Origin: Corynebacterium aurimucosum ATCC 700975
Lineage (GTDB): Bacteria; Actinomycetota; Actinomycetes; Mycobacteriales; Mycobacteriaceae
NCBI RefSeq assembly: GCF_007672725.1
Contig: NZ_VDTC01000007.1
Span: forward strand, 41,255 to 105,254
Direction of reading: 5' to 3'
Length of the DNA: 64,000 bases
Below the pieces are notes generated by a model. That model made no database searches, had not been told where the DNA came from, and was given only the letters and a program-made list of their open reading frames with translations. Shown one piece after another: positions 48,858 to 64,000 of the stretch. The translations under genes and the position numbers were made by a program. Each line of letters starts with the position of its first letter. Position 1 is the first letter of the stretch.

Positions 48858-50492
48858 ATGTCTATCTCCGCTCGTCCCACAGTGTCCCGCCGTGTCTTCG
48901 TCCAAGGCTCCGTGCTCACCGTCGCCGGTGCCGCCGTGATGGGGTTGAGCTCATGCTCTGCATCGTCCTCGAAGAATCAGCCAGAGCCACAGGGCTATGA
49001 CGGTGAGCCGCGCGCCCTGCCCATCCCGCCGGTGGACGAGGGCGAAGTTATTGACGGAACGCGAGTTTTCAAGCTGACCGCGCAGGACGGTTACTCGGAG
49101 GTCCTCCCCGGCAACGACCGCACCAGGACATGGGGTTTCAACGGTCCCTTCTTAGGGCCCACCCTGCGCGCCCGGCGCGGTGAAAAAGTCCGCGCGGAAA
49201 TTACGAACAACCTCATTGAGATGACCACGGTGCACTGGCACGGCATGAAGCTGCCTGCCTACTCGGATGGCGGCCCGCACTCGCCAATTGAGGTGGGCAA
49301 GACCTGGAAACCCGAGTGGGAGATCACCCAGCTGGCCGCCACGCTGTGGTACCACCCGCACCCGCACATGGCCACGGCCACGCATGCCTACCGCGGGCTG
49401 GCGGGGATGTTCCTGATTGATGACGACGTGGCCTCAGATCTTGATCTGCCCCAGGACTACGGCGTGGATGATATCCCGGTGGTCATCATGGACGCGAAGT
49501 TCACCGAGGACGGACAGATCGATGAGAAAAGCGATAACACCCTGGGGCTTCTGGGGACCACGCCTCTGGTCAACGGCATTACCAACGCGCGCTTCGACGC
49601 CATCACGCGCCGGGTCCGCCTGCGTCTGCTCAACGGTGCCTCGATGCGCTTCTACACACTGGAGCTGAGCAACGGCCCCTTCCACGTCATTGCCACGGAC
49701 ACAGGGCTTCTCGACACCCCCGTGGAAGTCGACTCCCTCCTCTTCGGCCCGGGCGAGCGTGCCGAAATCATCGTGGATTTGGAGCCCGGCGAGGAAGTAC
49801 AGCTGCGCTCGGTGCCGCGCAAGGATAACTTTGGGGTGCCCAAGGACAAGGATGCGGCTGACTTTGGATTCCAGGATTCCTTTGACATTCTCACCATCTC
49901 CGGGCCTGCGGAGTCCGCGCCGGAGCCATCGGCCCTGCCGGCAACGCTTGACCCGGCCGCGGCGAAGACCCCATCAACGGATGGGCTCAAGGAGCGCGAG
50001 TTCGTGCTCAACACTTTCATGATTAATGGTGAGCAGATGGATATGGCGCGGGTGGATACCGTCATTGATCATGACGCCCCGGAAATCTGGACCGTGACCA
50101 ATGAGAACTCTGACTGGCCGCACAACTTCCACATCCACAATGCCCGCTTCAAGGTCCTGGACTGGGACGGTGATGAAAAGATGGAGGTGTTCAACTCCGG
50201 GTGGAAGGACATTGTGAACCTTCCGCCGAAGGCCACCGCGCGCCTGCTGGTGGAGTTCGGACACTTCCCGGACAAGACCATCCCGTACATGTACCACTGC
50301 CACATGTTGCTGCATGAGGATGAAGGAATGATGGGGCAGTACGTCATGGTCAATAAGGGTGAAAAGCCCGACGTGCGCGTGAAACCAGCCGCCTTAGTCT
50401 TCGACCAAACCGCCACCGCCCACTCCGCGCACAGCGGCCAGGTGGTGGATTCCTCCCGCAGCCCCTATGCGACGCCGGAGGCGAAGGGCTAA
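48858..50492 (+). CDS. Multicopper oxidase, Tat-exported, CueO-like
   Basis: 544 residues. The N-terminus SRRVFVQGSVLTVAGAAVMG is a twin-arginine signal, followed by LSSC, a lipobox, so the protein is probably folded inside, exported by Tat and lipid-anchored. All four copper motifs are present: HWHGMKL, WYHPHPHMATA, NFHIHNARF, and YHCHMLLHEDEGMMGQYVM. It likely oxidises Cu(I) or Fe(II) or phenols. The start is the ATG at 48858 so that the Tat motif is N-terminal; the frame is open to 48786. Ends 4 bp inside the convergent GIY-YIG gene. Confidence 0.9.
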   Translation: MSISARPTVSRRVFVQGSVLTVAGAAVMGLSSCSASSSKNQPEPQGYDGEPRALPIPPVDEGEVIDGTRVFKLTAQDGYSEVLPGNDRTRTWGFNGPFLGPTLRARRGEKVRAEITNNLIEMTTVHWHGMKLPAYSDGGPHSPIEVGKTWKPEWEITQLAATLWYHPHPHMATATHAYRGLAGMFLIDDDVASDLDLPQDYGVDDIPVVIMDAKFTEDGQIDEKSDNTLGLLGTTPLVNGITNARFDAITRRVRLRLLNGASMRFYTLELSNGPFHVIATDTGLLDTPVEVDSLLFGPGERAEIIVDLEPGEEVQLRSVPRKDNFGVPKDKDAADFGFQDSFDILTISGPAESAPEPSALPATLDPAAAKTPSTDGLKEREFVLNTFMINGEQMDMARVDTVIDHDAPEIWTVTNENSDWPHNFHIHNARFKVLDWDGDEKMEVFNSGWKDIVNLPPKATARLLVEFGHFPDKTIPYMYHCHMLLHEDEGMMGQYVMVNKGEKPDVRVKPAALVFDQTATAHSAHSGQVVDSSRSPYATPEAKG

Positions 50493-51505
50493 CCCTTCAC
50501 GATGCTCTCGTAGGCACGGCCCGCTAGCGCCGAGCTGTGCCAGCGGCGGAAGAGGTTGGATGGGCGGTTGCGCATCAAGGTGACTGCGAATTTACGTGCG
50601 TCAGAGATGACTTCAGGATTTAGAGCGTTGAAGGTTTCCTCTAGTTGGCCGATGGGGTAGTAATAAGCCTCAGTTGGCGTGACGTTGTAATCATGGGAAG
50701 AGACGAAGTGGTAAGGGGATTTGCTAAACCAAACGGTATCGGATTCTGCTTTCCAATCGCCGCCCTCGCGTGGAAGAAGGCTAAAGAATCCGGTGCCGAG
50801 GGTGTAGCCGTCAAGAAAACCCAAGTCTAAGTTAGTTGGATCAGTGATGACACTGCTACGCGGGAAGACAAGAAACTCAAGTATCCCGGTATTGAGGGTT
50901 GCATATCGGCCACCAGCGGTTGAAGGATAGTCCGACAACGTCCAGTACGTTTTCTCTGTTTCTGGCGCAACAGGGATGATGTGCTCGAGGGCGAAGACGA
51001 TGTCTTTGATTACGGCTTGAGAAACTTCTGGGGGTGCGTTCTTTTCCAGCTTTGTTGGCCCCGATGCTTCAGCGCCACGGACAAAAGCTGCGCGATCAAA
51101 CTGTGATGGTTCCCAATCCCCAAGGATCCAATGTTTTTGATCGGTGACGGTTATGACTAAATCGAGTGGGCTGGGGCCTTCGGAAGCTAATACACCGCTG
51201 CGATTGCGGAGTAAGACGCCGGCATCGAGTTGGTACTGGATCATTTGTTTTTCAAGGATGTCCAGCTCCAAAGGCGGTGCGGGCGCAAATGATAGTGCTA
51301 CGACATCGCCCCAGGATTCATGGTGGTTGGAACCATGAGTGTGATCTCTGAACCGCTTGACGACGTCGATGGATTGGCCCACGTACTTCGTGCCATCGTC
51401 GAACTCGATGACATAGATTCCACACCGCTCATTGGCGGGGAAGATGGGGCCGATGGGTGTGTTTGAGTCAAGTTCCAAGCGCTTGAAGTCGAGGGGAGAA
51501 GCCAT
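50489..51505 (-). CDS. GIY-YIG domain protein with large unknown C-terminal region
   Basis: 338 residues. Residues 28-85 are a GIY-YIG nuclease-like domain: CGIYVIEFDDGTKYVGQSIDV (GIY and YVG), then VVKRFRDHTHGSNHH (Arg and His) and a Glu near 79 (LELDILEKQM). The rest (about 250 residues) matches nothing I know. A TACGTT box 6 nt before the ATG suggests a leaderless start. It diverges from cas3 and lies just downstream of the predicted guide RNA, whose terminator insulates it. It may be a standalone nuclease; involvement with CRISPR is unproven. Confidence 0.75.
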   Translation of the reverse strand: MASPLDFKRLELDSNTPIGPIFPANERCGIYVIEFDDGTKYVGQSIDVVKRFRDHTHGSNHHESWGDVVALSFAPAPPLELDILEKQMIQYQLDAGVLLRNRSGVLASEGPSPLDLVITVTDQKHWILGDWEPSQFDRAAFVRGAEASGPTKLEKNAPPEVSQAVIKDIVFALEHIIPVAPETEKTYWTLSDYPSTAGGRYATLNTGILEFLVFPRSSVITDPTNLDLGFLDGYTLGTGFFSLLPREGGDWKAESDTVWFSKSPYHFVSSHDYNVTPTEAYYYPIGQLEETFNALNPEVISDARKFAVTLMRNRPSNLFRRWHSSALAGRAYESIVKG

Positions 51506-51570
51506 GATGACAACGTAGACGATGCCTGGGGCCCAGCGTCCGCAGATTGGGTGTTTCAGATAAAAGAAAG

Positions 51571-51591
51571 CCCCGCTGACGCGGGGAAGTG
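51571..51591 (-). repeat. Pseudo-repeat 2: CRISPR-repeat hairpin that also serves as terminator
   Basis: CCCCGC, GTCA, GCGGGG on the minus strand (51586-51571). The array repeat has the same 6-bp stem with loop GTGA, so 15 of 16 positions agree. The five preceding bases (CACTT) replace the array's GTGCT. The array's ATGAGCC 3' part is replaced here by CTTTCTTTT, converting the repeat into an intrinsic terminator. Confidence 0.8.
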
Positions 51592-51611
51592 ATGGTGTTA
51601 AGCATCAGCAA

Positions 51612-51638
51612 GGGCTCATCCCAGCAGCGCAGGGAAGT
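51612..51638 (-). repeat. Pseudo-repeat 1: degenerate CRISPR repeat with intact 5' handle
   Basis: The minus strand reads CCCTGC, GCT, GCTGGG, then ATGAGCCC. Compared with the array, each stem arm has one change (a C-G pair became T-T) and the loop lost one base. The eight bases that would form the crRNA 5' handle are identical, with C at the variable 29th position. Confidence 0.8.
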
Positions 51639-51699
51639 TAAATGGCCCATCATGAAGCCTACATTGCGATTGTTAAAGAACAATTTTCAGAAAACAATG

Positions 51700-51727
51700 A
51701 ACTTGCTAATGCTAACAATGCTATGCT
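51700..51727 (+). promoter_or_regulatory. cas3 promoter overlapping the predicted self-protospacer
   Basis: An extended -10 (TGC then TATGCT, 51719-51727) predicts a start near 51734 and a leader of about 25 nt. The -35 area overlaps the PAM AAC (51700-51702), and the protospacer (51703-51722) fills the space between -35 and -10. Cascade bound here would exclude RNA polymerase. Confidence 0.65.
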
Positions 51728-51758
51728 CGTTTTAAACCACTTCTTATGAAGGATGATC

Positions 51759-54569
51759 ATGGAAAAGACTGCTGGACAGGGACCGAACTCAAGTTTAATT
51801 CCGGACCGGACACGTGATTTTTGTCTTAGGGCTGATGGCTGGGCGCGAGAGCGTAGTCCGCAAGCTCAAAGTTTGTGGGCTAAATCAGGTGATGGCACAG
51901 ATTTCTTGACGCTGCCGCAGCATATGGTGGATTCGGCATGCGCTGCCTCTTTCTTGTATAACTCCTGGTTGGCTGCTTCTGTGAAGCGCTATCTTTCAGA
52001 AGGGCTGGGGGTCGATGAGTCTGGGGTTGAGGCGCTATATGTGTGGCTTGCGGGAGTCCATGATGTGGGAAAAGCAATACGCACGTTCCAGCGCCTACTC
52101 CTGGAAAGTGATAAAGCGTATCTCGTGCATGCCGTCTCAGATGCGGGTTTAGATATTGAACTCAGTGTTGATGAGGCCAACTTTGACAAGCTTCCGCATG
52201 GCGTTGCGTCAGGAGAGATTCTATCTCAGTGGTTATGTGCACGAGGTGTTCGTCTCCCAAAAGCTAACGCATTGGCGGCGGTTGTTAACGCACACCACGG
52301 CATCGCGAATAAACCCTCGAGGCAGGTGCGCGAACTTATTGAGGATTACCCCGATCCATGGAAGCGCGTGCACAAAGAACTGCTCGACGCTATGACGGAT
52401 CCCTGTGGTGCTGACTCAGTGATTGAGAAGGTTTGTCGTGGCAACAAGCTGCATCAAGGCGTGGCGGAAATTCTCACTGGGCTCGTGGTGATGGCGGACT
52501 GGATGGCTTCTAATGAGAACGCGTTCACACTGCACGTGAGCGGAACGCAGCTTGAGCGGGTCGAGGCAGCTGCCGCAACTATCGACGTAACGACGCCTTG
52601 GGAACCTGAAAGAGGGGACTGGCGGGATATTGACGCTCACTTTCGGCGCTCGTTTGACTGGCCGGGGGAGTATTGTGCCCGGCCGGTGCAGCGTGCAGTC
52701 GTCGAGGCAGCGCAACAGCTGGAAGGGCCAGCACTTGTTGTCATTGAGGCCGAAACTGGAGTTGGAAAGACTGAAGCAGCCCTTGCTGCTGCAGAAATCC
52801 TGGGGGCTAACAGTGCAGCGCAAGGAGTTTTCTTCGCGGCACCGACCATGGCAACGGCTAATGGGTTGTTGGAGCGCACTATTGAATGGGCCTCGAACAA
52901 TAGCGTTGACTCGGTGAGGAGCATGTACCTTGCGCACTCCAAGAACGATCTTTCGGAGCCGTACCGGCAGCTGAAATTCTCGCAAATTGGCAAGGACTCC
53001 GGCGAAGGCGGCGGAGTTATTGCGTCACAATGGATGTCTGGACGCCGTCTGGGGCTGTTGTCCAATTTTGTGGTCGGCACTGTGGACCAAGTCTTGATGA
53101 TGGCGCTTCAGCAGCGCTTCCACATGCTGCGGCACGTGGGTCTGGCGGGGAAGGTCATCATCTTTGACGAGGTGCATTCTTTCGACGTCTACACCAGTGA
53201 CTACCTCCAAAGAACCATTGAGTGGCTTGGTTATTACGGTGCCAGCGTCATTCTCATGTCAGCGACGCTTCCGCCAGATAAGCGACGTTCACTGGTACAG
53301 GCATACTCCAGCGCACCCTGGCCTGATGAAGAACCTACTGGGTATCCACTGCTTACGCTTGCAACTAGGGATTCCGTGGAGTTTCATTCGGTGCCGCCAA
53401 CGCCAACGAACTTAGAAGCACGCATTGAGTACCTAGACGATGACGCGGAGAAGCTCGTAAGCTTCGCGGATTATTACCTCAATGAAGGCGGCTGCGCACT
53501 CATCATCTGCAACACGATTGCCCGCGCACAAGAGGCATATCGCGTTTTAGAAGGCGTTTACGGCGACGAAGTACAGCTACACCATGCAGGCTTCGTTGCG
53601 TGGGAGCGCGTAGCGAAGGAAGATGGCCTTCGCGAGGAACTCGGACCTGATTCTCACCGGGGAAGTGGGCGTCCGCAGCGCAAGATTGTGATCGCAACCC
53701 AAGTGGCGGAGCAAAGCCTCGATATTGATGCTGATGTTCTTGTCACGGATATCGCACCGATGGATCTCATTATCCAGCGCATCGGACGTTTGCATCGCCA
53801 TGCGCGTCCAGCCACTGATCGACCGGAGAAGCTACAACAGCCACGGGTGATGATTCGAGGACTCCTTAAGCACGAACCCGTCCCTGAGTTTGATTCGGGA
53901 GCGGAGTTTATCTACGGCCAAACCCTGCTCCTATCGACGTATGCGATGCTTCCAGAACTCTTTCGACGCCCCGACGATATTGAAGGACTTGTCCGAGCAG
54001 CATATGACAAGAACTTTATGCCGCCGGAGGAGTGGGAAGAGGCGTGGGAGAACGCAAAAAATGACAGCGATTCGACCGAAGATAGAGCTCATACCCGATC
54101 ATCGACGCATCAGCTGCCGCGCCCGTGGCCCCGCGTCAAATACCACGATCTTTTCCAACAACTCATTAGCGATGACGCAGCATCGGGAGATGAACGCGGA
54201 GCTACTCAAGTCCGAGATGCTGAACCTTCGGTGGAAGTCATTCCAATTAGGAGCACTGAATACGGCTATCAGCCGTGGGGCTTTGAGGAAGAAGTACTTG
54301 ATGGCACCGAGCTGTCCTACAACGTTGCGTTCCATTTGGCTTCGAGCACGGTCCGTCTACCGACTCGTTTGACGAGGTGGGAATCTGATTTTGAGGCGGT
54401 CGTCAGCACTTTGGAAGAAGCTACGCCGGCACAATGGCGTTCGCATTTCCTTCTAAGGGGACAACTGGCATTGCTGCTCGACGATTCTGACACCGCACAG
54501 CTTGGGCGGTTTACCGTGACTTATTCCTCCGAGCTGGGTATCGAAATTCTTAGCGATGGAGGAGAGTGA
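51759..54569 (+). CDS. cas3: CRISPR-associated helicase-nuclease Cas3 (type I-E)
   Basis: 936 residues. It unwinds and degrades DNA marked by Cascade. The HD nuclease has LAGVHDVGKAIRTFQR near residue 100 and NAHHG further on. The helicase has Walker A EAETGVGKTEAAL (about 332), DEVH in IIFDEVHSFD (about 468) and motif VI QRIGRLHRH (about 672). I chose the ATG at 51759 because GAAGGA ends 5 nt before it; the ATG at 51753 lies inside that site. It is first in the cas operon and its promoter carries the predicted self-target. Base composition is less GC-rich than the housekeeping genes, in line with horizontal acquisition. Confidence 0.96.
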   Translation: MEKTAGQGPNSSLIPDRTRDFCLRADGWARERSPQAQSLWAKSGDGTDFLTLPQHMVDSACAASFLYNSWLAASVKRYLSEGLGVDESGVEALYVWLAGVHDVGKAIRTFQRLLLESDKAYLVHAVSDAGLDIELSVDEANFDKLPHGVASGEILSQWLCARGVRLPKANALAAVVNAHHGIANKPSRQVRELIEDYPDPWKRVHKELLDAMTDPCGADSVIEKVCRGNKLHQGVAEILTGLVVMADWMASNENAFTLHVSGTQLERVEAAAATIDVTTPWEPERGDWRDIDAHFRRSFDWPGEYCARPVQRAVVEAAQQLEGPALVVIEAETGVGKTEAALAAAEILGANSAAQGVFFAAPTMATANGLLERTIEWASNNSVDSVRSMYLAHSKNDLSEPYRQLKFSQIGKDSGEGGGVIASQWMSGRRLGLLSNFVVGTVDQVLMMALQQRFHMLRHVGLAGKVIIFDEVHSFDVYTSDYLQRTIEWLGYYGASVILMSATLPPDKRRSLVQAYSSAPWPDEEPTGYPLLTLATRDSVEFHSVPPTPTNLEARIEYLDDDAEKLVSFADYYLNEGGCALIICNTIARAQEAYRVLEGVYGDEVQLHHAGFVAWERVAKEDGLREELGPDSHRGSGRPQRKIVIATQVAEQSLDIDADVLVTDIAPMDLIIQRIGRLHRHARPATDRPEKLQQPRVMIRGLLKHEPVPEFDSGAEFIYGQTLLLSTYAMLPELFRRPDDIEGLVRAAYDKNFMPPEEWEEAWENAKNDSDSTEDRAHTRSSTHQLPRPWPRVKYHDLFQQLISDDAASGDERGATQVRDAEPSVEVIPIRSTEYGYQPWGFEEEVLDGTELSYNVAFHLASSTVRLPTRLTRWESDFEAVVSTLEEATPAQWRSHFLLRGQLALLLDDSDTAQLGRFTVTYSSELGIEILSDGGE

Positions 54570-54677
54570 ATGTCCGTCGCCCTTTGTACTCTGAGGGCAC
54601 CTCCTCTCAGAGGCTCCTCTACGAGAATCAACAACCCACAACAAGACAAAGAAAGGAGGCGAAAGAAGAATGACTGA
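54570..54677 (+). CDS. Possible 35-residue leader ORF between cas3 and cas8e
   Basis: The ATG directly follows the cas3 stop (TGAATG) and is preceded by GGAGGAG inside the end of cas3. The frame closes 8 nt inside cas8e (ATGACTGA). The peptide has a very basic tail (DKERRRKKND) and uses AGA/AGG arginine codons five times, partly because the cas8e ribosome-binding site AAAGGAGG lies in it. It may simply couple translation from cas3 to cas8e. A 7-bp hairpin (54589-54612) sits inside. No homologue known to me. Confidence 0.3.
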   Translation: MSVALCTLRAPPLRGSSTRINNPQQDKERRRKKND

Positions 54678-56415
54678 CACCTCAACGTTTAACCTTCTCG
54701 ATGAGCCATGGATCAAGTGCATGGATGGTACCAACCAGCCTGTAACCCTGAGCATCCGCGATATCTTTTCTGGCCGCGGTGACGCTTACAAAGTCGTTGG
54801 TGACTCACCAACTCAGGACTACGCGGTGCTTCGTGTGCTGCTGGCCATTTTTTGGCGGGCGCATGCTCTAGATCTTGTGGAGAGTTACGCGGGCAATAAT
54901 TGGGAAGACTTTGATTGGCCGGAATGGTTCGATGATCTGCGTGATCAGCTTGTAAACGAGAAGCGTGATGACGCGGTCCTTGACTACCTTGATGGCCTTG
55001 AAGATCGGTTCGATCTTCTTTCACCGATTGCTCCCTTCATGCAAGTCGCGGACTTGCATACGAAGTCAGGAGCCACAAAACCTGTAGCCTTCATTGTTCC
55101 GGAAGCTGCTGATGACTTCTTCACCATGCGTACAGCGGAAGGACGAGAATCTCTCGCTCTCGATGAGGCCGCTAGATGGCTGATCCATGCGCAGGCATTC
55201 GATTACTCGGGAATCAAGTCGGGTGCGGAAGGAGATCCCCGCGTTAAAGGCGGACGAGGCTACCCCATCGGAACTGGTTGGACCGGACGCACTGGCGGCA
55301 CGATTGTCCTAGGCGAAGGTGGGATTCTTGAGACTCTGATTCTCAATACCCCGCCGTCAGCGGTCTTGGATTCCCAAGAGGGAGGAGCTGTGAGCGCGGA
55401 TATTCCCGTCTGGGAACGTGACCCCGACACCGCAGCGCAGCGACCGGGATCAAGCGATGACATAGGCGCCGTCCCACACGGTGCGGTCGATCTTGCGACC
55501 TGGCAGGCACGGCGTATTCGCCTCTTCTTTGAAGGCGACCGCGCGGTTCAAGTATTGGTCTCGAACGGCGACCGTATTCCAGATGCAGGAAAGAACGTCA
55601 TGGGCGATCCCATGACCCCTTACCGCTACAGTCCGAATCAATCGAAGAAGGGGACACCTGCATATTATGCTCGCCCCTATGACCCGACTCGGACAATGTG
55701 GCGAGCACTCGATGCACTGATCGCATTGGAGGATGACCCCGGATTCGATAGTGGCAAGAACAAAGCTCCGAAGCGACCGAGAAATCTCTCCAACCTGGCG
55801 GCTCTCGAAGCGGATGGGTACTTGAACAAGAGCCTTCTCGATCTCGCATTGGTGTCGATGGAGTACGGCCCGCAGGAGTCGTCCGTGGCCTCGACGTTTA
55901 TCGCCACGATAGGTTTGCCACTCGTCGTACTGCGTGCCGATGAAACTGGACGCAAGGTGCGCAATGCCGTACGTACCTCCGCTGAGAAAACTGGCAAAGC
56001 TGCAATCAGCCTCGGCTGGTTTGCCGGTCAGTTGCTCGTCGCCGCTGGCGGTGACTATGAATTCGGAAGCAGTACTGCTGACCGTTTCTATGCTCGTCTT
56101 GAACCGCTCTTCCTGACATGGATGGCAGGGTTGAGCTCTGACAACGCTGAGGAATGGCAGATTGATTGGCAAAAGCAGGTCCGCGAACAGGTGCTTCGTG
56201 ATGCCCGCGAACTTCTTCGTGGTGCTGGAACAAAGGCCATCGTGGGCAGAGAAGTCGACGCCGGAGACAGCGGCAAGGGACGAATAGTTTCAGCCGGCTC
56301 GCTCTACCGACAACTGCATCGAAGGCTCGATAAAGACCTACCGTTGACGGCTTCTCTCACCATCCCAGACACAGGTGCCTTTGGAAACTCACACGAGGAT
56401 GACTCCGATGACTAA
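54670..56415 (+). CDS. cas8e: Cascade large subunit Cas8e (Cse1/CasA)
   Basis: 581 residues. The large subunit reads the PAM and recruits Cas3. The opening FNLLDEPWIKCMDGTNQPVTLSIRDIF is the typical Cse1 N-terminus, and GGRGYPIGTGWTGRTGGTIVLGEGGILETLI near residue 197 is another conserved block. The C-terminal helical bundle is present. An AAAGGAGG site lies 10 nt before the ATG. Its 3' end overlaps cse2 by 8 bp. Confidence 0.95.
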   Translation: MTDTSTFNLLDEPWIKCMDGTNQPVTLSIRDIFSGRGDAYKVVGDSPTQDYAVLRVLLAIFWRAHALDLVESYAGNNWEDFDWPEWFDDLRDQLVNEKRDDAVLDYLDGLEDRFDLLSPIAPFMQVADLHTKSGATKPVAFIVPEAADDFFTMRTAEGRESLALDEAARWLIHAQAFDYSGIKSGAEGDPRVKGGRGYPIGTGWTGRTGGTIVLGEGGILETLILNTPPSAVLDSQEGGAVSADIPVWERDPDTAAQRPGSSDDIGAVPHGAVDLATWQARRIRLFFEGDRAVQVLVSNGDRIPDAGKNVMGDPMTPYRYSPNQSKKGTPAYYARPYDPTRTMWRALDALIALEDDPGFDSGKNKAPKRPRNLSNLAALEADGYLNKSLLDLALVSMEYGPQESSVASTFIATIGLPLVVLRADETGRKVRNAVRTSAEKTGKAAISLGWFAGQLLVAAGGDYEFGSSTADRFYARLEPLFLTWMAGLSSDNAEEWQIDWQKQVREQVLRDARELLRGAGTKAIVGREVDAGDSGKGRIVSAGSLYRQLHRRLDKDLPLTASLTIPDTGAFGNSHEDDSDD

Positions 56416-57076
56416 CACTTCAACTAGCACTGATTACCCGAGCACGTCGTCAAGGCCAACCTTGCGCCAAGCAGTTGCTCGGACTGCGAACGACCTTCAG
56501 TTTGCTATCTTGCGCTCGCCAAACCATTCGCAAAGCGCACAGGCACGTGCAACGCTTGCGAGACTTCGCAAGTATGCTTCCGTGCCCCTCAACGACCAAC
56601 CTCTAGCTCTAGAGGAAGTCCTGCTGAGCCTTCATTCGCCTCTTAGCGAGAAGGAACTCGGCAGAGGAAACGCTCCTTCAGCGTCGGAGTCTGCAGCATT
56701 TCATGCCCTCGTCATGTTTGGCATTCACATGCAAAGTGCGACGACTGACGCCCACGTTGAAGGTCAAAGCTTTGCCCATGCATGTGGCCGCTTCTTTGCA
56801 CAGAGCGAATCGCAGTCCACAAAGCCCCGCTTCGATGCCATGCTCGTTTCACGCGATGAAGCATCTCGATTGATCCATATCCGCTCGCTCATCACGCTGC
56901 TTCGCGGCGCAAAGATTGGCTTTGACTATGGGCAATTTGCACAAGACCTCAGAATTCTCAGCGCTCGGACCTCCACCCAAGCTGATCAGAATCGCCGCCA
57001 AGGGGTTCTTTTGAGATGGGGGCGTGACTTTGCCGCTGGTGCTTTTGTCAAGAGCACGAAAGCTACTGAATCCTAA
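56408..57076 (+). CDS. cse2: Cascade small subunit Cse2 (CasB)
   Basis: 222 residues, mostly helical and basic, as expected for the small subunit that stabilises the displaced strand. Recognisable segments are TLARLRKYA in the first helices and ALVMFGIHMQS midway. The start at 56408 gives the usual ATGACTAA overlap with cas8e; upstream in-frame ATGs lie deeper in cas8e. Confidence 0.92.
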   Translation: MTNTSTSTDYPSTSSRPTLRQAVARTANDLQFAILRSPNHSQSAQARATLARLRKYASVPLNDQPLALEEVLLSLHSPLSEKELGRGNAPSASESAAFHALVMFGIHMQSATTDAHVEGQSFAHACGRFFAQSESQSTKPRFDAMLVSRDEASRLIHIRSLITLLRGAKIGFDYGQFAQDLRILSARTSTQADQNRRQGVLLRWGRDFAAGAFVKSTKATES

Positions 57077-57109: not shown

Positions 57110-58264
57110 ATGTCCCTTGTTATTGATATCCACGCACTACAAACCCTGCCGCCGTCTCTGATCAACCGAGACGATACGGGTGCTCCCAAGTCCGCAATTT
57201 TTGGTGGGGTCCCGCGCCAGCGCGTGTCCTCACAATCCTGGAAGCGCGCAATTCGAAACTACTTTGAAAAGAACGTCGATCCTGAGTTCGTGGGGGACCG
57301 CTCAAAGCGCCTGCCAGAGAAGATCGCGAAACTCGTTGAGAACCACGATGGCTGGGATTCTAAGCGCGCTATCAAACAGGTTTCTGATCTTTTCAAGGCC
57401 GCAGGTATTTCGACCGAAGTCGATAGCAAGCGGATCAAGGAACTAGAAAAGTCCGACGCCGAGGACAAAGAGGAGCTCATTAAGGAAGCTAGCTATCCGC
57501 GAACTAAGTACCTCATCTTCTTGAGCCCGCAGCAGATTGATCGCGCAGTCCGAGCGATCGTCGATGCTGACGGAGAGAAGATCAAAAAGGCTGAGGCTAA
57601 AGAGATCCTCGATACGCAGCATTCTGTCGATATGGCGATGTTTGGTCGCATGATTGCTGATGACGCTGCCTTCAATGTTGATGCCGCAGTGCAGGTTGCT
57701 CATGCATTGGGTATCCACAGCAGCGCTCCAGAATTCGACTATTTCACTGCGGTCGATGATCTCGCAGAAGATGGTGAAGAGACGGGTGCTGGGATGATCG
57801 GCACGGTACAAATGATGTCTTCTACCCTGTACCGGTTCGCCACTGTGAACGTAGCTGGCCTTACAAAGAATCTCGACTCCGAAGAGAACGCAAAGCAGGC
57901 TGCGGTTCAGTTTGTCGACGCGTTCATCAAATCCATGCCCACCGGCAAGATCAATTCTTTTGCCAACCACACGCTGCCTGAGCTGGTCTATGTCACAGTG
58001 CGCGATACCCGTCCGGTCAGCCTTGTGACGGCGTTTGAAGAACCTGTCCAAGCCACCGACGACAAGAACTTGCGCTTAGCAGGTGCCGAAGCTCTGGCAA
58101 AGGAAGAAAGGGAGTTTGAGGAGAACTACGGTCTGAAGCCATTGGCTGCATTCGCGGTTGGTGTAAGCGTAGCGCGAGCACCGTTCGCTGACATCGCTGA
58201 GACCGTAACTTTGCCCGAACTAGCGGACCGTCTTGCCGCAGCGTTGAATTCCTCCCAATCCTAG
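57110..58264 (+). CDS. cas7e: Cascade backbone Cas7e (Cse4/CasC)
   Basis: 384 residues. Six copies normally coat the crRNA, each kinking one base out of pairing at every sixth position. The N-terminus VIDIHALQTLPPSLINRDDTGAPKSAIFGG followed by RQRVSSQSWKRAIRNYF is the Cas7e signature. The thumb region (about 60-190) is present. A GAAAGGAAAAG site precedes the ATG. Length is standard. Confidence 0.95.
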   Translation: MSLVIDIHALQTLPPSLINRDDTGAPKSAIFGGVPRQRVSSQSWKRAIRNYFEKNVDPEFVGDRSKRLPEKIAKLVENHDGWDSKRAIKQVSDLFKAAGISTEVDSKRIKELEKSDAEDKEELIKEASYPRTKYLIFLSPQQIDRAVRAIVDADGEKIKKAEAKEILDTQHSVDMAMFGRMIADDAAFNVDAAVQVAHALGIHSSAPEFDYFTAVDDLAEDGEETGAGMIGTVQMMSSTLYRFATVNVAGLTKNLDSEENAKQAAVQFVDAFIKSMPTGKINSFANHTLPELVYVTVRDTRPVSLVTAFEEPVQATDDKNLRLAGAEALAKEEREFEENYGLKPLAAFAVGVSVARAPFADIAETVTLPELADRLAAALNSSQS

Positions 58265-58280: not shown

Positions 58281-58997
58281 ATGACATCGAGCTTATTACT
58301 GTTGCTCAAGGCCCCCTTGCAGTCTTGGGGCAATGATTCGCGCTATGCGACGCGAACAACCTCGCAGATACCATCGAAATCCGGAGTGCTCGGTATGCTT
58401 GCCGCTGCGGAAGGTCGCCGGCGGACCGACGACATTGAGGACCTCGCCCGTCTTACTTTCGCTGTGCGGGTTGACCAGTCCGGTAGTCTGCTGCGTGATT
58501 ACCAGACCGCACAGAATTGGCAGCGGAATCCAAATGCATCCGCAAAATTGATTACGCGCTATTTCCTCTCTGATGCTGCCTTTGTTGCCGCCATCGAGGC
58601 AGAGGACCGCGGTTTGCTTGAAGGTTTGGCTGAGGCGCTGAACAAACCTGCATTCCCCATTTTCTTGGGACGACGTTCATGTCCGGCACCGCCAAATTTG
58701 GTGCAGGGAATCGACGGCAAACCCGCGGTTGAGTCGCTTCAAGCGCACTCTACGTGGCATGCCACAAAGGAGTACATGAAGACCTGTGGAGAGAAGGTAG
58801 CCCTGCCGATTTATCGCGATGCAAAGCCAGGTGAACTCGGGGAGTCGTTGCAAGACGTGCCCGTGTCGTTCGATCCGAGGCACCGAAAGTACTCCTGGCG
58901 CACGGTTGTTCAACGTGAGCGCGCCATGGTTGATAATCCCTTGGACGCATCGCAGCTACGGCCGGACCCATTCATGGAAGCGGTGATGAACGCGTGA
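58281..58997 (+). CDS. cas5e: Cascade subunit Cas5e (CasD)
   Basis: 238 residues. It caps the 5' handle of the crRNA. LLLLKAPLQSWGNDSRYATRTT and IPSKSGVLGMLAAAEGRRR at the N-terminus are the Cas5e RAMP signature. The gene overlaps cas6e by 4 bp (GTGA), implying coupled translation. Confidence 0.95.
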   Translation: MTSSLLLLLKAPLQSWGNDSRYATRTTSQIPSKSGVLGMLAAAEGRRRTDDIEDLARLTFAVRVDQSGSLLRDYQTAQNWQRNPNASAKLITRYFLSDAAFVAAIEAEDRGLLEGLAEALNKPAFPIFLGRRSCPAPPNLVQGIDGKPAVESLQAHSTWHATKEYMKTCGEKVALPIYRDAKPGELGESLQDVPVSFDPRHRKYSWRTVVQRERAMVDNPLDASQLRPDPFMEAVMNA

Positions 58998-59686
58998 CCA
59001 CGCTAACTAAGATCCTGATCAACCCTCAGTTGCGTCAAGGGCGGAAGCTCCTTACGAATCCACATGCCATGCACGCGGCAGTTAGTGCAGCTTTTCCGCC
59101 GGACATCGATACCGATGAAGCACGCTTGTTATGGCGGATTGATCGAAATAGTCACGAAAACGCTCTTTACATTGTTGGCCCCGAGAAACCGACGGCGTCT
59201 GGAATTGTAGAGCAGGCTGGCTACGACACACGGCCCGCCCAGTCTCTTGATTACACCCGCCTGCTGGGGTCATTGCAGAAGGGGCAGCGCTGGAGGTTTG
59301 AGCTGCTTGCAAACCCAACCTATTCTCAGTCCAACAACGGAAAACGTGGCAAAGTTAAAGCCCACGTTTCAGTAGAGCACCAGCTTGAGTGGCTCTATTC
59401 TCGGGCAGAAAAGGCTGGTTTTGCGTTGGCTCCGCGCGCCAATGACACGGTGCCTGCGAAAGAACGAGCGCGTTGGTCGGTAGAAGATGAAACAGCCATC
59501 GTGGAGAGGCAGACCCTCGATTTCCGCAAAGGCGAAAATCGACGTCACATCCGCATCGTAACGGCCCGCTATCGTGGCACCCTGCAGGTCACAGATTCTG
59601 CGCTCCTCCGCTCCACTCTTACTCACGGTATAGGGCGTGCTCGTGGTTATGGTTGTGGTCTGATGACGTTGGCGGCAGTTTCTTAA
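58994..59686 (+). CDS. cas6e: crRNA endonuclease Cas6e (CasE)
   Basis: 230 residues with two ferredoxin-like folds. It cuts 3' of the repeat hairpin. A His in NPHAMHAAVSAAF near residue 24-28 is a candidate catalytic residue, and the glycine-rich loop GIGRARGYGCGLMTL closes the C-terminus. Its target hairpin (CCCCGC/GCGGGG) occurs in the array and, conserved or slightly altered, in the guide RNA at 51562-51649. The GTG start overlaps cas5e. Confidence 0.94.
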   Translation: MTTLTKILINPQLRQGRKLLTNPHAMHAAVSAAFPPDIDTDEARLLWRIDRNSHENALYIVGPEKPTASGIVEQAGYDTRPAQSLDYTRLLGSLQKGQRWRFELLANPTYSQSNNGKRGKVKAHVSVEHQLEWLYSRAEKAGFALAPRANDTVPAKERARWSVEDETAIVERQTLDFRKGENRRHIRIVTARYRGTLQVTDSALLRSTLTHGIGRARGYGCGLMTLAAVS

Positions 59687-60624
59687 TGGCTACGCCACAT
59701 GAGGTCCCTATCGCACGCCAGGCTTTGGCGCGCGTAGGGGACCGGATCAGTTTTCTTTACGCCGAACGCTGTGTAGTGAATCGTGATGGCAATTCGCTCA
59801 CGATAATGGACCAACGGGGCATTGCTCATCTTCCAGCTACCCAAATCGCAGCTCTTCTATTGGGGCCGGGGACAAAGATTACCTATGCTGCGATGGCCCT
59901 GCTTGGCGACGCTGGCGTAAGCACCGTCTGGGTAGGAGAGCGCGGTGTGCGGTACTACGCACACGGCCGTCCGCCAGCAAAATCAAGCCGCATGGCAGAA
60001 ATCCAAGCGGAGGTAGTCACTCACCAACGCAAGAGATTGAATTGTGCACGTCGCATGTATGCCATGCGCTTTCCAGGTGAGGATGTGTCGGGTTTGACCA
60101 TGGCACAACTACGCGGCCGAGAAGGCGCGAGGATGAAGAAGGTCTATGAAGCGGAATCGAAACGAACCGGAGTCTATTGGAATCGGCGCTCCTATGATCC
60201 AAATGGTTTTGAATCCTCTGACCCGATTAATCAGGCACTGACTGCTGCAAGTGCAGCACTTTACGGAGTAGCTCACGCTGTCATCACTGCTTTAGGGTTC
60301 GTTCCCGCTTTAGGCGTTGTTCACACGGGAACTGACCGCGCCTTTGTTTATGACATCGCTGATTTGTATAAGGCAGAGATTTCAATTCCCGCTGCTTTTG
60401 ATACTGTCGCGGCTGCCAAAGGAAAGCCAACCGTAGAAGTTCGCCGTCACATTCGTGACTACGTTGTTTCACATAGACTCATGCCGCGCATGGTCAAAGA
60501 CCTTAAGTCGCTGTTCGATATCCCTGATGATGAGCTTGTGAGCGATGTCGAACTCATGCTGTGGAGTGAACTCGAAGTCATTGCTTCAGGAGTGAATTGG
60601 GCTGAAGAGGAGACACTTTCGTGA
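59686..60624 (+). CDS. cas1: CRISPR integrase Cas1 (type I-E)
   Basis: 312 residues. With Cas2 it inserts new spacers next to the leader. Candidate metal ligands are the Glu of RGREGARM (about residue 144), the His of GVVHTGTDRAFVYD and the following Asp residues of YDIADLYK. The start overlaps the cas6e stop (TAATG). A GTG-started cas2 overlaps its 3' end by 4 bp. Confidence 0.95.
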   Translation: MATPHEVPIARQALARVGDRISFLYAERCVVNRDGNSLTIMDQRGIAHLPATQIAALLLGPGTKITYAAMALLGDAGVSTVWVGERGVRYYAHGRPPAKSSRMAEIQAEVVTHQRKRLNCARRMYAMRFPGEDVSGLTMAQLRGREGARMKKVYEAESKRTGVYWNRRSYDPNGFESSDPINQALTAASAALYGVAHAVITALGFVPALGVVHTGTDRAFVYDIADLYKAEISIPAAFDTVAAAKGKPTVEVRRHIRDYVVSHRLMPRMVKDLKSLFDIPDDELVSDVELMLWSELEVIASGVNWAEEETLS

Positions 60625-60977
60625 TCGTTCTTGTCGTAACTGCATGCCCCGCTGGGCTTCGGGGCGACTTATCAAAATGGCTGATTGAACTAACATCGGG
60701 CGTCTTTGTCGGCCGCCCTTCCGCACGAATTCGTGACTTGTTGTGGGAGCGAACCGTTGAACTGTGTAAGGACGGAAGAGCATTACTAGTCTATTCGGCA
60801 GCAAACGAACAGGGTTTAGAATTCCGGACTCACCGGCATCATTGGCAGCCACAAGACTTTGATGGTGTCACGCTCATGGTTCGTCCTGCTCCTGGAAGCA
60901 AGAAAATTCAGAACAGGACTGGTTGGTCACAAGCCCGACGGATTCGTTCGGCATACCAGAAACAGAAACGAAAATAG
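60621..60977 (+). CDS. cas2: Cas2 (type I-E)
   Basis: 118 residues with the ferredoxin-like fold VLVVTACPAGLRGDLSKWLIELTSGVFVG typical of Cas2e, and a C-terminal tail of basic residues beyond the core. It forms the structural centre of the Cas1-Cas2 integrase. The start is GTG. It is the last cas gene; the leader and array follow directly. Confidence 0.94.
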   Translation: MIVLVVTACPAGLRGDLSKWLIELTSGVFVGRPSARIRDLLWERTVELCKDGRALLVYSAANEQGLEFRTHRHHWQPQDFDGVTLMVRPAPGSKKIQNRTGWSQARRIRSAYQKQKRK

Positions 60978-61068: not shown

Positions 61069-64000
61069 GTGCTCCCCGCGTGAGCGGGGATGAGCCGCCA
61101 TCCAATCCCACTTATTCGAGATCCAGTCCGTGCTCCCCGCGTGAGCGGGGATGAGCCCGGGACGATGACACTAAAGTCGGGGTTGCCGTAGTGCTCCCCG
61201 CGTGAGCGGGGATGAGCCGATTAGCGGGCCGGTGAGGGAACTCGCCACCCAGTGCTCCCCGCGTGAGCGGGGATGAGCCCCCGGCGCGTCGGGCGAGCTC
61301 ATTGATGACCGGGTGCTCCCCGCGTGAGCGGGGATGAGCCGTGAGACGCTACGAACCAGCAGATAACGAAGACGTGCTCCCCGCGTGAGCGGGGATGAGC
61401 CCCAGGTACATATTGCGCGCCGTTTGGAGAAGCTGTGCTCCCCGCGTGAGCGGGGATGAGCCGCCCACCATCCTCAAAGACCTCATCACCGGCCTGTGCT
61501 CCCCGCGTGAGCGGGGATGAGCCGCAGGTCACCAGCCGCCAGATGCCGCAGGTAATGTGCTCCCCGCGTGAGCGGGGATGAGCCCTTGAGCGCTACGCCA
61601 ACGGTGGCACACGTGAGGTGCTCCCCGCGTGAGCGGGGATGAGCCCGTCGGGGCAGTTGGTTAGCCCGCGTGAGGCGAGTGCTCCCCGCGTGAGCGGGGA
61701 TGAGCCCCTCACGGGATGAACCATTTACATCGCACCTCCGTGCTCCCCGCGTGAGCGGGGATGAGCCCACCCTGGACCGTAACGGCATGGGCGTGCCCGT
61801 GTGCTCCCCGCGTGAGCGGGGATGAGCCCCACACAATCGGGGCATTGGTGCCGCACTCCTCGTGCTCCCCGCGTGAGCGGGGATGAGCCGGCGGCACTAT
61901 CTACGGCATCGACATTAGCGAGGTGCTCCCCGCGTGAGCGGGGATGAGCCTCCTTATTCATCCAGGTCATTGTTGGGGTCCTTGTGCTCCCCGCGTGAGC
62001 GGGGATGAGCCCGGCGCGTGCCGTCCTCCAGCGTGGTGATGTAGGTGCTCCCCGCGTGAGCGGGGATGAGCCCACCCGCACCTCCTCCCTCTGGGCCAAC
62101 ACACTGTGCTCCCCGCGTGAGCGGGGATGAGCCGTTTGTAGGCCCCTGGGTAGGCCCCGAGTTGGGGTGCTCCCCGCGTGAGCGGGGATGAGCCGAATGC
62201 CGCCACCGCCAAGAAACCTACCCCCAGGTGCTCCCCGCGTGAGCGGGGATGAGCCGTACGGCAAGGGTGTGGAGGTTAGCGCTGTGGGGTGCTCCCCGCG
62301 TGAGCGGGGATGAGCCCACTATCCTCAATAAGGGCCACGCCGGACGGATGTGCTCCCCGCGTGAGCGGGGATGAGCCCAGGCCGACATACTGCCCGTGGG
62401 CTTGCATGACGTGCTCCCCGCGTGAGCGGGGATGAGCCGTGGCCCTGACCTGGTGCGGCCTGAGGGGATCGGTGCTCCCCGCGTGAGCGGGGATGAGCCC
62501 TGCCAGTCACCAGCACTGTCGAGACGAATATAGTGCTCCCCGCGTGAGCGGGGATGAGCCCGGCAAGGTATGGCGCGACGTGCTCGACCCCACGTGCTCC
62601 CCGCGTGAGCGGGGATGAGCCGCACGACGGCATCCTGGTCAAAGCTGGCGATAGGTGCTCCCCGCGTGAGCGGGGATGAGCCGGATTCGCATGAGTTCCG
62701 CATGGTCAATCGGTGGTGCTCCCCGCGTGAGCGGGGATGAGCCCGCAGCGAATTGCCCCAGATGATCACATCGACCGTGCTCCCCGCGTGAGCGGGGATG
62801 AGCCGGCGCGGTGTGGTATCTGAACACCCAAATCGGCGTGCTCCCCGCGTGAGCGGGGATGAGCCGTATGACCTGCAGGTACCGGAGGACATCGACCTGT
62901 GCTCCCCGCGTGAGCGGGGATGAGCCCGCCCACTAATCCCACGCCAGTCCCACAAAACGGTGCTCCCCGCGTGAGCGGGGATGAGCCCACAGCACCCACC
63001 GCATTCTGGGTGGTGGCCTGGTGCTCCCCGCGTGAGCGGGGATGAGCCCGTGGTGGCGACGATGCAGCAGGCAGAAGAAAGGTGCTCCCCGCGTGAGCGG
63101 GGATGAGCCGTTCTCCGGCCCGATGAACCCGTGGAACGTTTGGTGCTCCCCGCGTGAGCGGGGATGAGCCCATCTCATCACTCAGGGCATCAAAGTCCTG
63201 GTCGTGCTCCCCGCGTGAGCGGGGATGAGCCGTCGAAGTGGAATCGTGCCTGCACTTCTGGGCAGTGCTCCCCGCGTGAGCGGGGATGAGCCCCCTTACG
63301 TTATGCGCGGCGGGGCGTTGTCCCTGTGCTCCCCGCGTGAGCGGGGATGAGCCAGCAGAACCATTGCTATCAACGGTGACAGTCGTGGTGCTCCCCGCGT
63401 GAGCGGGGATGAGCCGGGTGATGAGGGGTCAGCTTCTAATGTGTCTAAGTGCTCCCCGCGTGAGCGGGGATGAGCCCTTCTTCGAGGGTGGTCGGGCCTG
63501 CGCTGAACCGTGCTCCCCGCGTGAGCGGGGATGAGCCGCCACCAAAATCACCCCCCGCCGTCATGACAGTGTGCTCCCCGCGTGAGCGGGGATGAGCCCG
63601 ATGTGCTTCATGATTATTGGGGCCAGAGACCGTGCTCCCCGCGTGAGCGGGGATGAGCCCGAGCTATTTATCAAGCTCAAAAAAGGACGAGCGTGCTCCC
63701 CGCGTGAGCGGGGATGAGCCCCAGAGGCGGGCCAGGGTGTCGCTCGTGTTGCTGTGCTCCCCGCGTGAGCGGGGATGAGCCGAGGGAGGACTTTCCGACT
63801 TGTGAGGCGTTTCCGTGCTCCCCGCGTGAGCGGGGATGAGCCCTTCTGCAAGGGTGGTCGGGCCTGCACTGAACCGTGCTCCCCGCGTGAGCGGGGATGA
63901 GCCCAGCTTCGGACAGCAAGCGGGCGGACTCACCCGGTGCTCCCCGCGTGAGCGGGGATGAGCCCAGCTTCGGACAGCAAGCGGGCGGACTCACCCGGTG
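61069..64000 (+). CRISPR. Type I-E CRISPR array, 48 full repeats plus start of a 49th, continues past the window
   Basis: The 28-nt core repeat begins GTGCTCCCCGCG at 61069, has a CCCCGC/GCGGGG stem with loop GTGA, and ends ATGAGCC; I saw no variant core repeat. Repeats recur every 61 bp, so spacers are 33 nt (32 if the G/C that follows in 46 of 48 cases is counted as repeat position 29). Spacer 38 (63354-63387) is 34 nt. Spacers 47 and 48 are identical, and spacers 40 and 46 differ at three positions. The leader is on the cas2 side, so low-numbered spacers are newest. Orientation agrees with the E. coli I-E repeat. Confidence 0.99.

Follow-up and report, generated by a model that had tools for sequence, protein, structure and literature searches.

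A two-repeat mini-CRISPR on the minus strand (51640-51562) adjoins the complete type I-E cas operon in the 64,000-nt stretch of Corynebacterium aurimucosum ATCC 700975 analyzed here (the window). This mini-array is very probably a type I-E CreR (Cas-regulating RNA), which likely represses cas3. We base this assignment on degenerate repeats with an intact handle, a PAM-flanked match upstream of cas3, the uniqueness of that match in the genome, the joint change of guide and promoter among relatives, and an unpaired base at every sixth position. An autorepressor of this kind had been proposed from the letters of this DNA (the sequence-only reading), and the joint divergence of guide and promoter described below argues for it.

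The operon lies on the plus strand. The helicase-nuclease gene cas3 spans 51753-54569 (NCBIfam cas3_core, E 1.2e-53; cas3_HD, 2.8e-16), and the ATG at 51759, with AAGGA ahead of it, is a likelier start than 51753. It is followed by cse1 (54670-56415), cse2 (56375-57076), cas7e (57110-58264), cas5e (58281-58997) and cas6e (58994-59686), each above the cut-off of its NCBIfam type I-E model, by the adaptation genes cas1e and cas2e (59653-60977; NCBIfam), and by a canonical CRISPR array with repeat GTGCTCCCCGCGTGAGCGGGGATGAGCC and a period of 61, which begins at 61069 and runs off the window at 64000. The mini-array is linked, as a CreR would be, to a complete type I-E operon (cas3, cse1, cse2, cas7, cas5, cas6, cas1 and cas2). 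Phage targets of the spacers of the window's array, sought for the PAM, gave no match. At the end of the array in the window (63815-63997), the final two complete spacers are identical, and the spacers at 63449 and 63815 are near copies, a sign of duplication inside the array or of assembly. On the other side of the operon, the mini-array is immediately followed, on its own strand, by a gene with a GIY-YIG nuclease domain (50489-51505, minus strand; Pfam E 3.2e-06).

The scan returned neither a promoter nor a terminator in the 100-nt gap between cas3 and cse1, so control at cas3 may affect the whole operon. The same gap contains a hairpin, ctctgag-GGCACCTCCT-ctcagag (54588-54611, plus strand), whose loop resembles an anti-Shine-Dalgarno sequence; some 45 nt further on comes the cse1 ribosome site AAAGGAGG. 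A CACCTCC motif was present in this gap in 10 of 11 loci of the window's clade, versus 1 of 68 other gaps examined. The hairpin might pair with the cse1 start signal.

In their best 28-nt placements, the first and second degenerate repeats of the mini-array, psi-R1 (51640-51613) and psi-R2 (51591-51564), are each identical to the array repeat at 17 of 28 positions. The 5' handle of psi-R1, ATGAGCC (51619-51613), is intact, and the stem-loop of psi-R2, CCCCGCGTCAGCGGGG (51586-51571), is identical to the hairpin of the array repeat at 15 of 16 positions; both features agree with the sequence-only reading. The same reading gave the pseudo-spacer a length of 20 nt. A short spacer does separate the repeats (51612-51592, beginning with C and TTGCTGATGCTTAACACCAT), but it measures about 21 nt, 12 nt under an array spacer, and the distance from the end of the handle to the second stem is 26 nt, versus 38 nt in the array. 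With repeats so divergent and a guide so short, the mini-array departs from a canonical array, which has near-identical repeats and full-length spacers; it is a crRNA-like unit with a repeat-derived handle outside an array, as a CreR is.

The U-run noted behind the unit corresponds to the T-rich tail CTTTCTTTTA (51570-51561; 7 T in the 10 nt past the stem), which makes the second hairpin a terminator-like site: the terminator scan predicted an intrinsic terminator fused to psi-R2. The putative promoter proposed in front, TTGTTC-16-TAGGCT, can be read from the letters (minus strand, 51683-51656), but it was absent from the output of the consensus promoter scan, which gave TTAACA-16-CATGAT (minus strand, 51676-51649). 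In the predicted lowest-energy fold of a 90-nt transcript, the handle and guide pair with the second repeat and the hairpin is not free; such a fold differs from a clean Cas6e substrate; in vivo it could make processing slower or have no bearing. An Rfam search of 51300-52000 gave no match at E <= 1.

Just 5' of cas3, the plus strand reads AAC TTGCTAATGCT, and the guide reads TTGCTGATGCT. The AAC (51700-51702) occupies the PAM position, and the target (51703-51723) starts about 50 nt before cas3. Within the seed (51703-51713), guide positions 1-5 and 7-11 are paired and position 6 is mismatched, as is position 12, just as had been described. The sequence TTGCTNATGCT occurs in the 64-kb window only in the guide and the target, AANTTGCTNATGCT is present in the whole genome as a single copy, at the target site, and a genome search found no second target of the guide. 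The earlier placement of the target, filling the spacer between the -35 and -10 of cas3, did not hold: the consensus scan returned no -35/-10 pair for cas3. Of the 11 loci in the window's clade, 9 have a TANNNT hexamer at protospacer positions 20-25, and its counterpart in the window, TATGCT (51722-51727), is the predicted -10 element of cas3, so that the PAM and seed would sit where a -35 would be. As in a CreR, the guide has PAM-flanked partial complementarity to its own cas promoter at this predicted position.

We then compared loci across the genus. Relatives of cas3 were present in 109 of 242 Corynebacterium genomes, and loci were taken from 80 of the other 108, leaving aside weak, fragmentary or short-contig matches and some others with about 35% identity; with the window, the set comprised 81 loci. 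Picking by architecture alone (handle and second stem) gave 56 mini-arrays in 55 of the 81 loci. Each was scored at 10 seed positions against plus-strand targets with its own mini-array masked, and the PAM AA was favored only as a tie-break between equal scores. Forty-five of the 56 matched their own cas3 upstream region at 9 or more of 10 positions, 32 of them at all 10. When guides were swapped to loci with unrelated guides, 30 of 4044 combinations reached 9 and none reached 10. A looser search of both strands gave 93 candidates in 60 of the 81 loci, some of them plain array units, with 37 at 10/10 and 12 at 9/10; its 6900 swaps gave 5 and 155, respectively, or 1 and 8 with an AA PAM. Chance similarity of guide and target was ruled out by these swap controls. 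The PAM was AAC in 40 of the 45 matched mini-arrays, AAG in three, AAA in one and AAT in one. The AAC first noted 5' of the match is therefore the usual PAM, and it agrees with the 'AC' given for Corynebacterium I-E in the PAM table of a separate survey, which lists AAC for Bifidobacterium (PMC8482600).

Among the 11 units that scored below 9, six were later matched: L085, L086 and L107 in a wider search; L077, whose target proved to lie farther downstream; and L054 and L095, with 8 of 10 positions plus 13-16 paired. Five of the 56 (L076, the second unit in L088, L092, L104 and L108) were unmatched after wider searches. No guide was supported in 26 of the 81 loci, among which L042 and L043 are fairly near relatives (60% cas3 identity), and a search with relaxed settings upstream of cas3 in L042, L043, L053, L056 and others found none. 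Either the loop has been lost repeatedly, or these loci use something that the search patterns miss. Many related loci (among them L044, L047, L050, L052, L055, L057-L059, L061, L063, L066 and L067) carry a second set of perfect repeats upstream of cas3; these array units sit beyond the mini-array. Six loci of a more distantly related I-E lineage in the genus (L099-L101, L106, L107 and L109) carry the mini-array on the opposite (plus) strand, with ATGTTCC or ATGATCC as the handle; three of them have a minus-strand target.

To the 45 loci picked by architecture alone we added seven from the looser search that were selected for an AA PAM, plus two picked manually (L054 and L095), giving 54 loci for analysis of pairing. 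At positions that had not been scored, pairing exceeded that of partner shuffles: 47 versus 21.2 at position 13, 37 versus 15.3 at 14, 31 versus 14.4 at 15 and 27 versus 13.7 at 16. The corresponding values were 19 versus 20.4 at position 6, 13 versus 10.1 at 12 and 7 versus 14.1 at 18. Across these sequences, positions 1-5, 7-11 and 13-16 retain pairing and the bases that Cascade flips out, 6, 12 and 18, lack it; the interpretation of the mismatches at 6 and 12 as flipped bases, made for the window, generalizes over the 54 loci. E. coli Cascade flips out every sixth base and can bind on a PAM plus only 5 seed nt, with 18-25 bp needed for interference (PMC5904413).

The 45 guides form 25 families, with any two families sharing fewer than 8 of 11 seed letters. 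For 18 locus pairs on non-overlapping paths of a Cas3 tree (78 of the 81 rows; quick method), the seed changes comprised 53 two-sided changes with pairing kept, 8 one-sided and 4 two-sided without it, a balance that is partly built in, since loci enter the set largely by seed match; the swap test is free of this bias. Of 22 changes at positions 6 and 12, pairing was kept in 1. The closest changed relative, L033 (79% Cas3 identity), has CT replaced by TC at seed positions 10-11 in guide and target alike. These comparisons of sequence indicate that guide and promoter co-evolve across the genus. Independent divergence of the two had been named in advance as the outcome that would speak against autorepression; we found the reverse, with both diverging together.

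Outside the genus, 40 loci were taken from 71 genomes with matches. Six of the 40 (L127, L138, L142, L143, L144 and L146) had a 10/10 seed with an AA PAM and three more (L115, L120 and L135) a 9/10 seed with an AA PAM, and 6903 swaps gave 0 and 15 such cases, respectively. Several of these targets lie on the minus strand, up to about 320 nt from cas3, which makes a role at the cas3 promoter less sure. The 10/10 matches of L125 and L130, without an AA PAM, proved to be plain matches to the array repeat. The pattern was repeated in 16 Corynebacterium loci of a further set of 80; many of the 16 share contigs with the main set and are not independent. Swaps in this further set gave 5 of 21251 at 10/10 with related guides left in. 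A seventeenth match, L222 (Streptomyces), is missing the second stem and is probably due to chance.

The guides come in two sizes. The distance from the end of the handle to the second stem is 25-26 nt in 35 of the 54 loci and 37-38 nt in 19, with none between, and in canonical arrays its mode is 38 (2132 of 4160 pattern hits, the remainder being partly pattern noise). Twelve nucleotides correspond to two Cas7 steps. The tree requires a minimum of 4 changes between the sizes, and of 13 between having and lacking a guide. Altered crRNAs are mentioned to give variable numbers of Cas7 (PMC6828817), and in type I-B a 24-bp spacer brought a gene down to 10.8%, with loss of both interference and priming (PMC10989794). 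This I-B result, together with a shortening by two Cas7 steps, suggests that short guides may be a safety feature; an E. coli study that reportedly found interference with shortened spacers counts against a strict length rule. We put forward only tentatively that the short class is a safety device, in which a four-Cas7 Cascade would silence the promoter and be incapable of calling Cas3, one gene set would yield two kinds of Cascade, and guide and promoter would form a lineage-private, drifting lock and key. Full-length guides would then rely on mismatches alone.

In the mechanism that we propose, transcription of the minus-strand mini-CRISPR would be followed by Cas6e cleavage at the first repeat, releasing a crRNA-like RNA predicted to start AUGAGCCC. 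Its 3' end would be set by the terminator or by a second cut, and the RNA would then be loaded into Cascade. Guided to the AAC-flanked 11-nt match just upstream of cas3, Cascade would cover the -35 side of the cas3 promoter and block RNA polymerase. The match is presumably too short to license Cas3, so the chromosome would be spared. As in published CreRs, repression would be eased when ordinary crRNAs or anti-CRISPR proteins draw Cascade away. Counting against this model are the 26 loci and five unmatched units described above, the predicted fold of the transcript, the absence of a cas3 promoter from the consensus scan, and the varied distance of the target from the estimated cas3 start in more distant relatives (-19 to -101).

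Other explanations can be weighed against the same data. A CreTA-type addiction module, with a small toxin RNA under repression by the guide and cas3 merely as its neighbor, would account for the two degenerate repeats and for pairing at 1-5 and 7-11, both of which are features of CreA guides (PMC8501985). We consider it improbable: a target about 50 nt before cas3, with a leader of about 25 nt behind the predicted -10, would leave no room for a linked toxin gene at whose promoter the guide could be aimed. Moreover, the target lies 19-101 nt upstream of the estimated cas3 start in the 45 loci. The terminator-like score of the second hairpin and its T-run, with 5 or more T in the 10 nt past the stem in 24 of the 54 loci, would also suit the remnant of a decayed CRISPR, matching the region upstream of cas3 by chance and retained for transcription termination alone. 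The unit is kept without such a T-run in the remaining 30 loci, and the swap controls, against which guides matched their own loci, strongly disfavor this view; the 53 paired changes also count against it, and its probability is very small.

If guide and target were two operator copies for a repressor protein, they would also appear as a pair of similar 11-mers some 90 nt apart. Some 25 dissimilar sequences that share no operator motif, next to a constant handle and PAM, make this just as hard to credit as the terminator view, and an unpaired base at every sixth position matches the behavior of Cascade, not that of any single DNA-binding protein. The small RNA predicted next to cas3 could also be an antisense RNA pairing with cas3 mRNA, the least credible of these possibilities. 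The guide is on the minus strand in 48 of the 54 loci and on the plus strand in three, all with the match on the plus strand, and the match is on the minus strand in the other three; having the sense of the cas3 strand, the guide of 51 of the 54 loci is unable to base-pair with the mRNA of cas3, which excludes antisense pairing for the window.

Read as a CreR, the mini-array predicts that type I-E immunity in much of Corynebacterium rests on a self-limiting RNA loop, one that would have to be reckoned with in expressing native I-E systems or editing with them. The 54 loci offer natural data on what Cascade needs at a regulatory target, with the flipped-base pattern brought out by evolution and not in the test tube. 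From two guide sizes that differ by 12 nt, a prediction on Cascade stoichiometry follows directly; if the reading of the short guides is true, they are exactly two Cas7 steps (12 nt) under immune spacers.

Among known systems, the natural single-guide tracr-L of Cas9, reportedly described by Workman et al. in 2021, is said to be alike in that the effector uses a short guide match to repress the operon encoding it, and to differ in belonging to Class 2, with a different RNA and no mini-array. CreA of the haloarchaeal CreTA resembles the mini-array in having a psi-R1 with a conserved handle, a degenerate psi-R2, a PAM, 1-5/7-11 pairing and, in some units, a terminator; it differs in its target, a toxin promoter in type I-B there versus cas3 in type I-E here (PMC8501985, PMC9458426). 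Among the largely open-access papers covered by our literature search, which took in Liu et al. 2023 only through papers citing it, we found no description of the Corynebacterium instance, of guide-promoter co-evolution across the genus, or of two guide sizes 12 nt apart. The novelty first claimed was nevertheless set too high: the instance itself was not found described, but autorepression by a type I-E CreR is in print (PMC13131331). CreRs (Cas-regulating RNAs; Liu et al. 2023, Cell Host Microbe, via PMC13131331, PMC12737573 and PMC12948488) autorepress through partial promoter complementarity in types I-B, I-E and V-A (PMC13131331, citing Liu et al. 2023). The mini-array shares with them a crRNA-like RNA, partial complementarity to its own cas promoter, a type that is among the three published, and the lack of a toxin; within what the citing papers say of CreRs, we see no difference in kind. 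The self-control circuit is thus already known, and the Corynebacterium mini-array is likely a new example of it.
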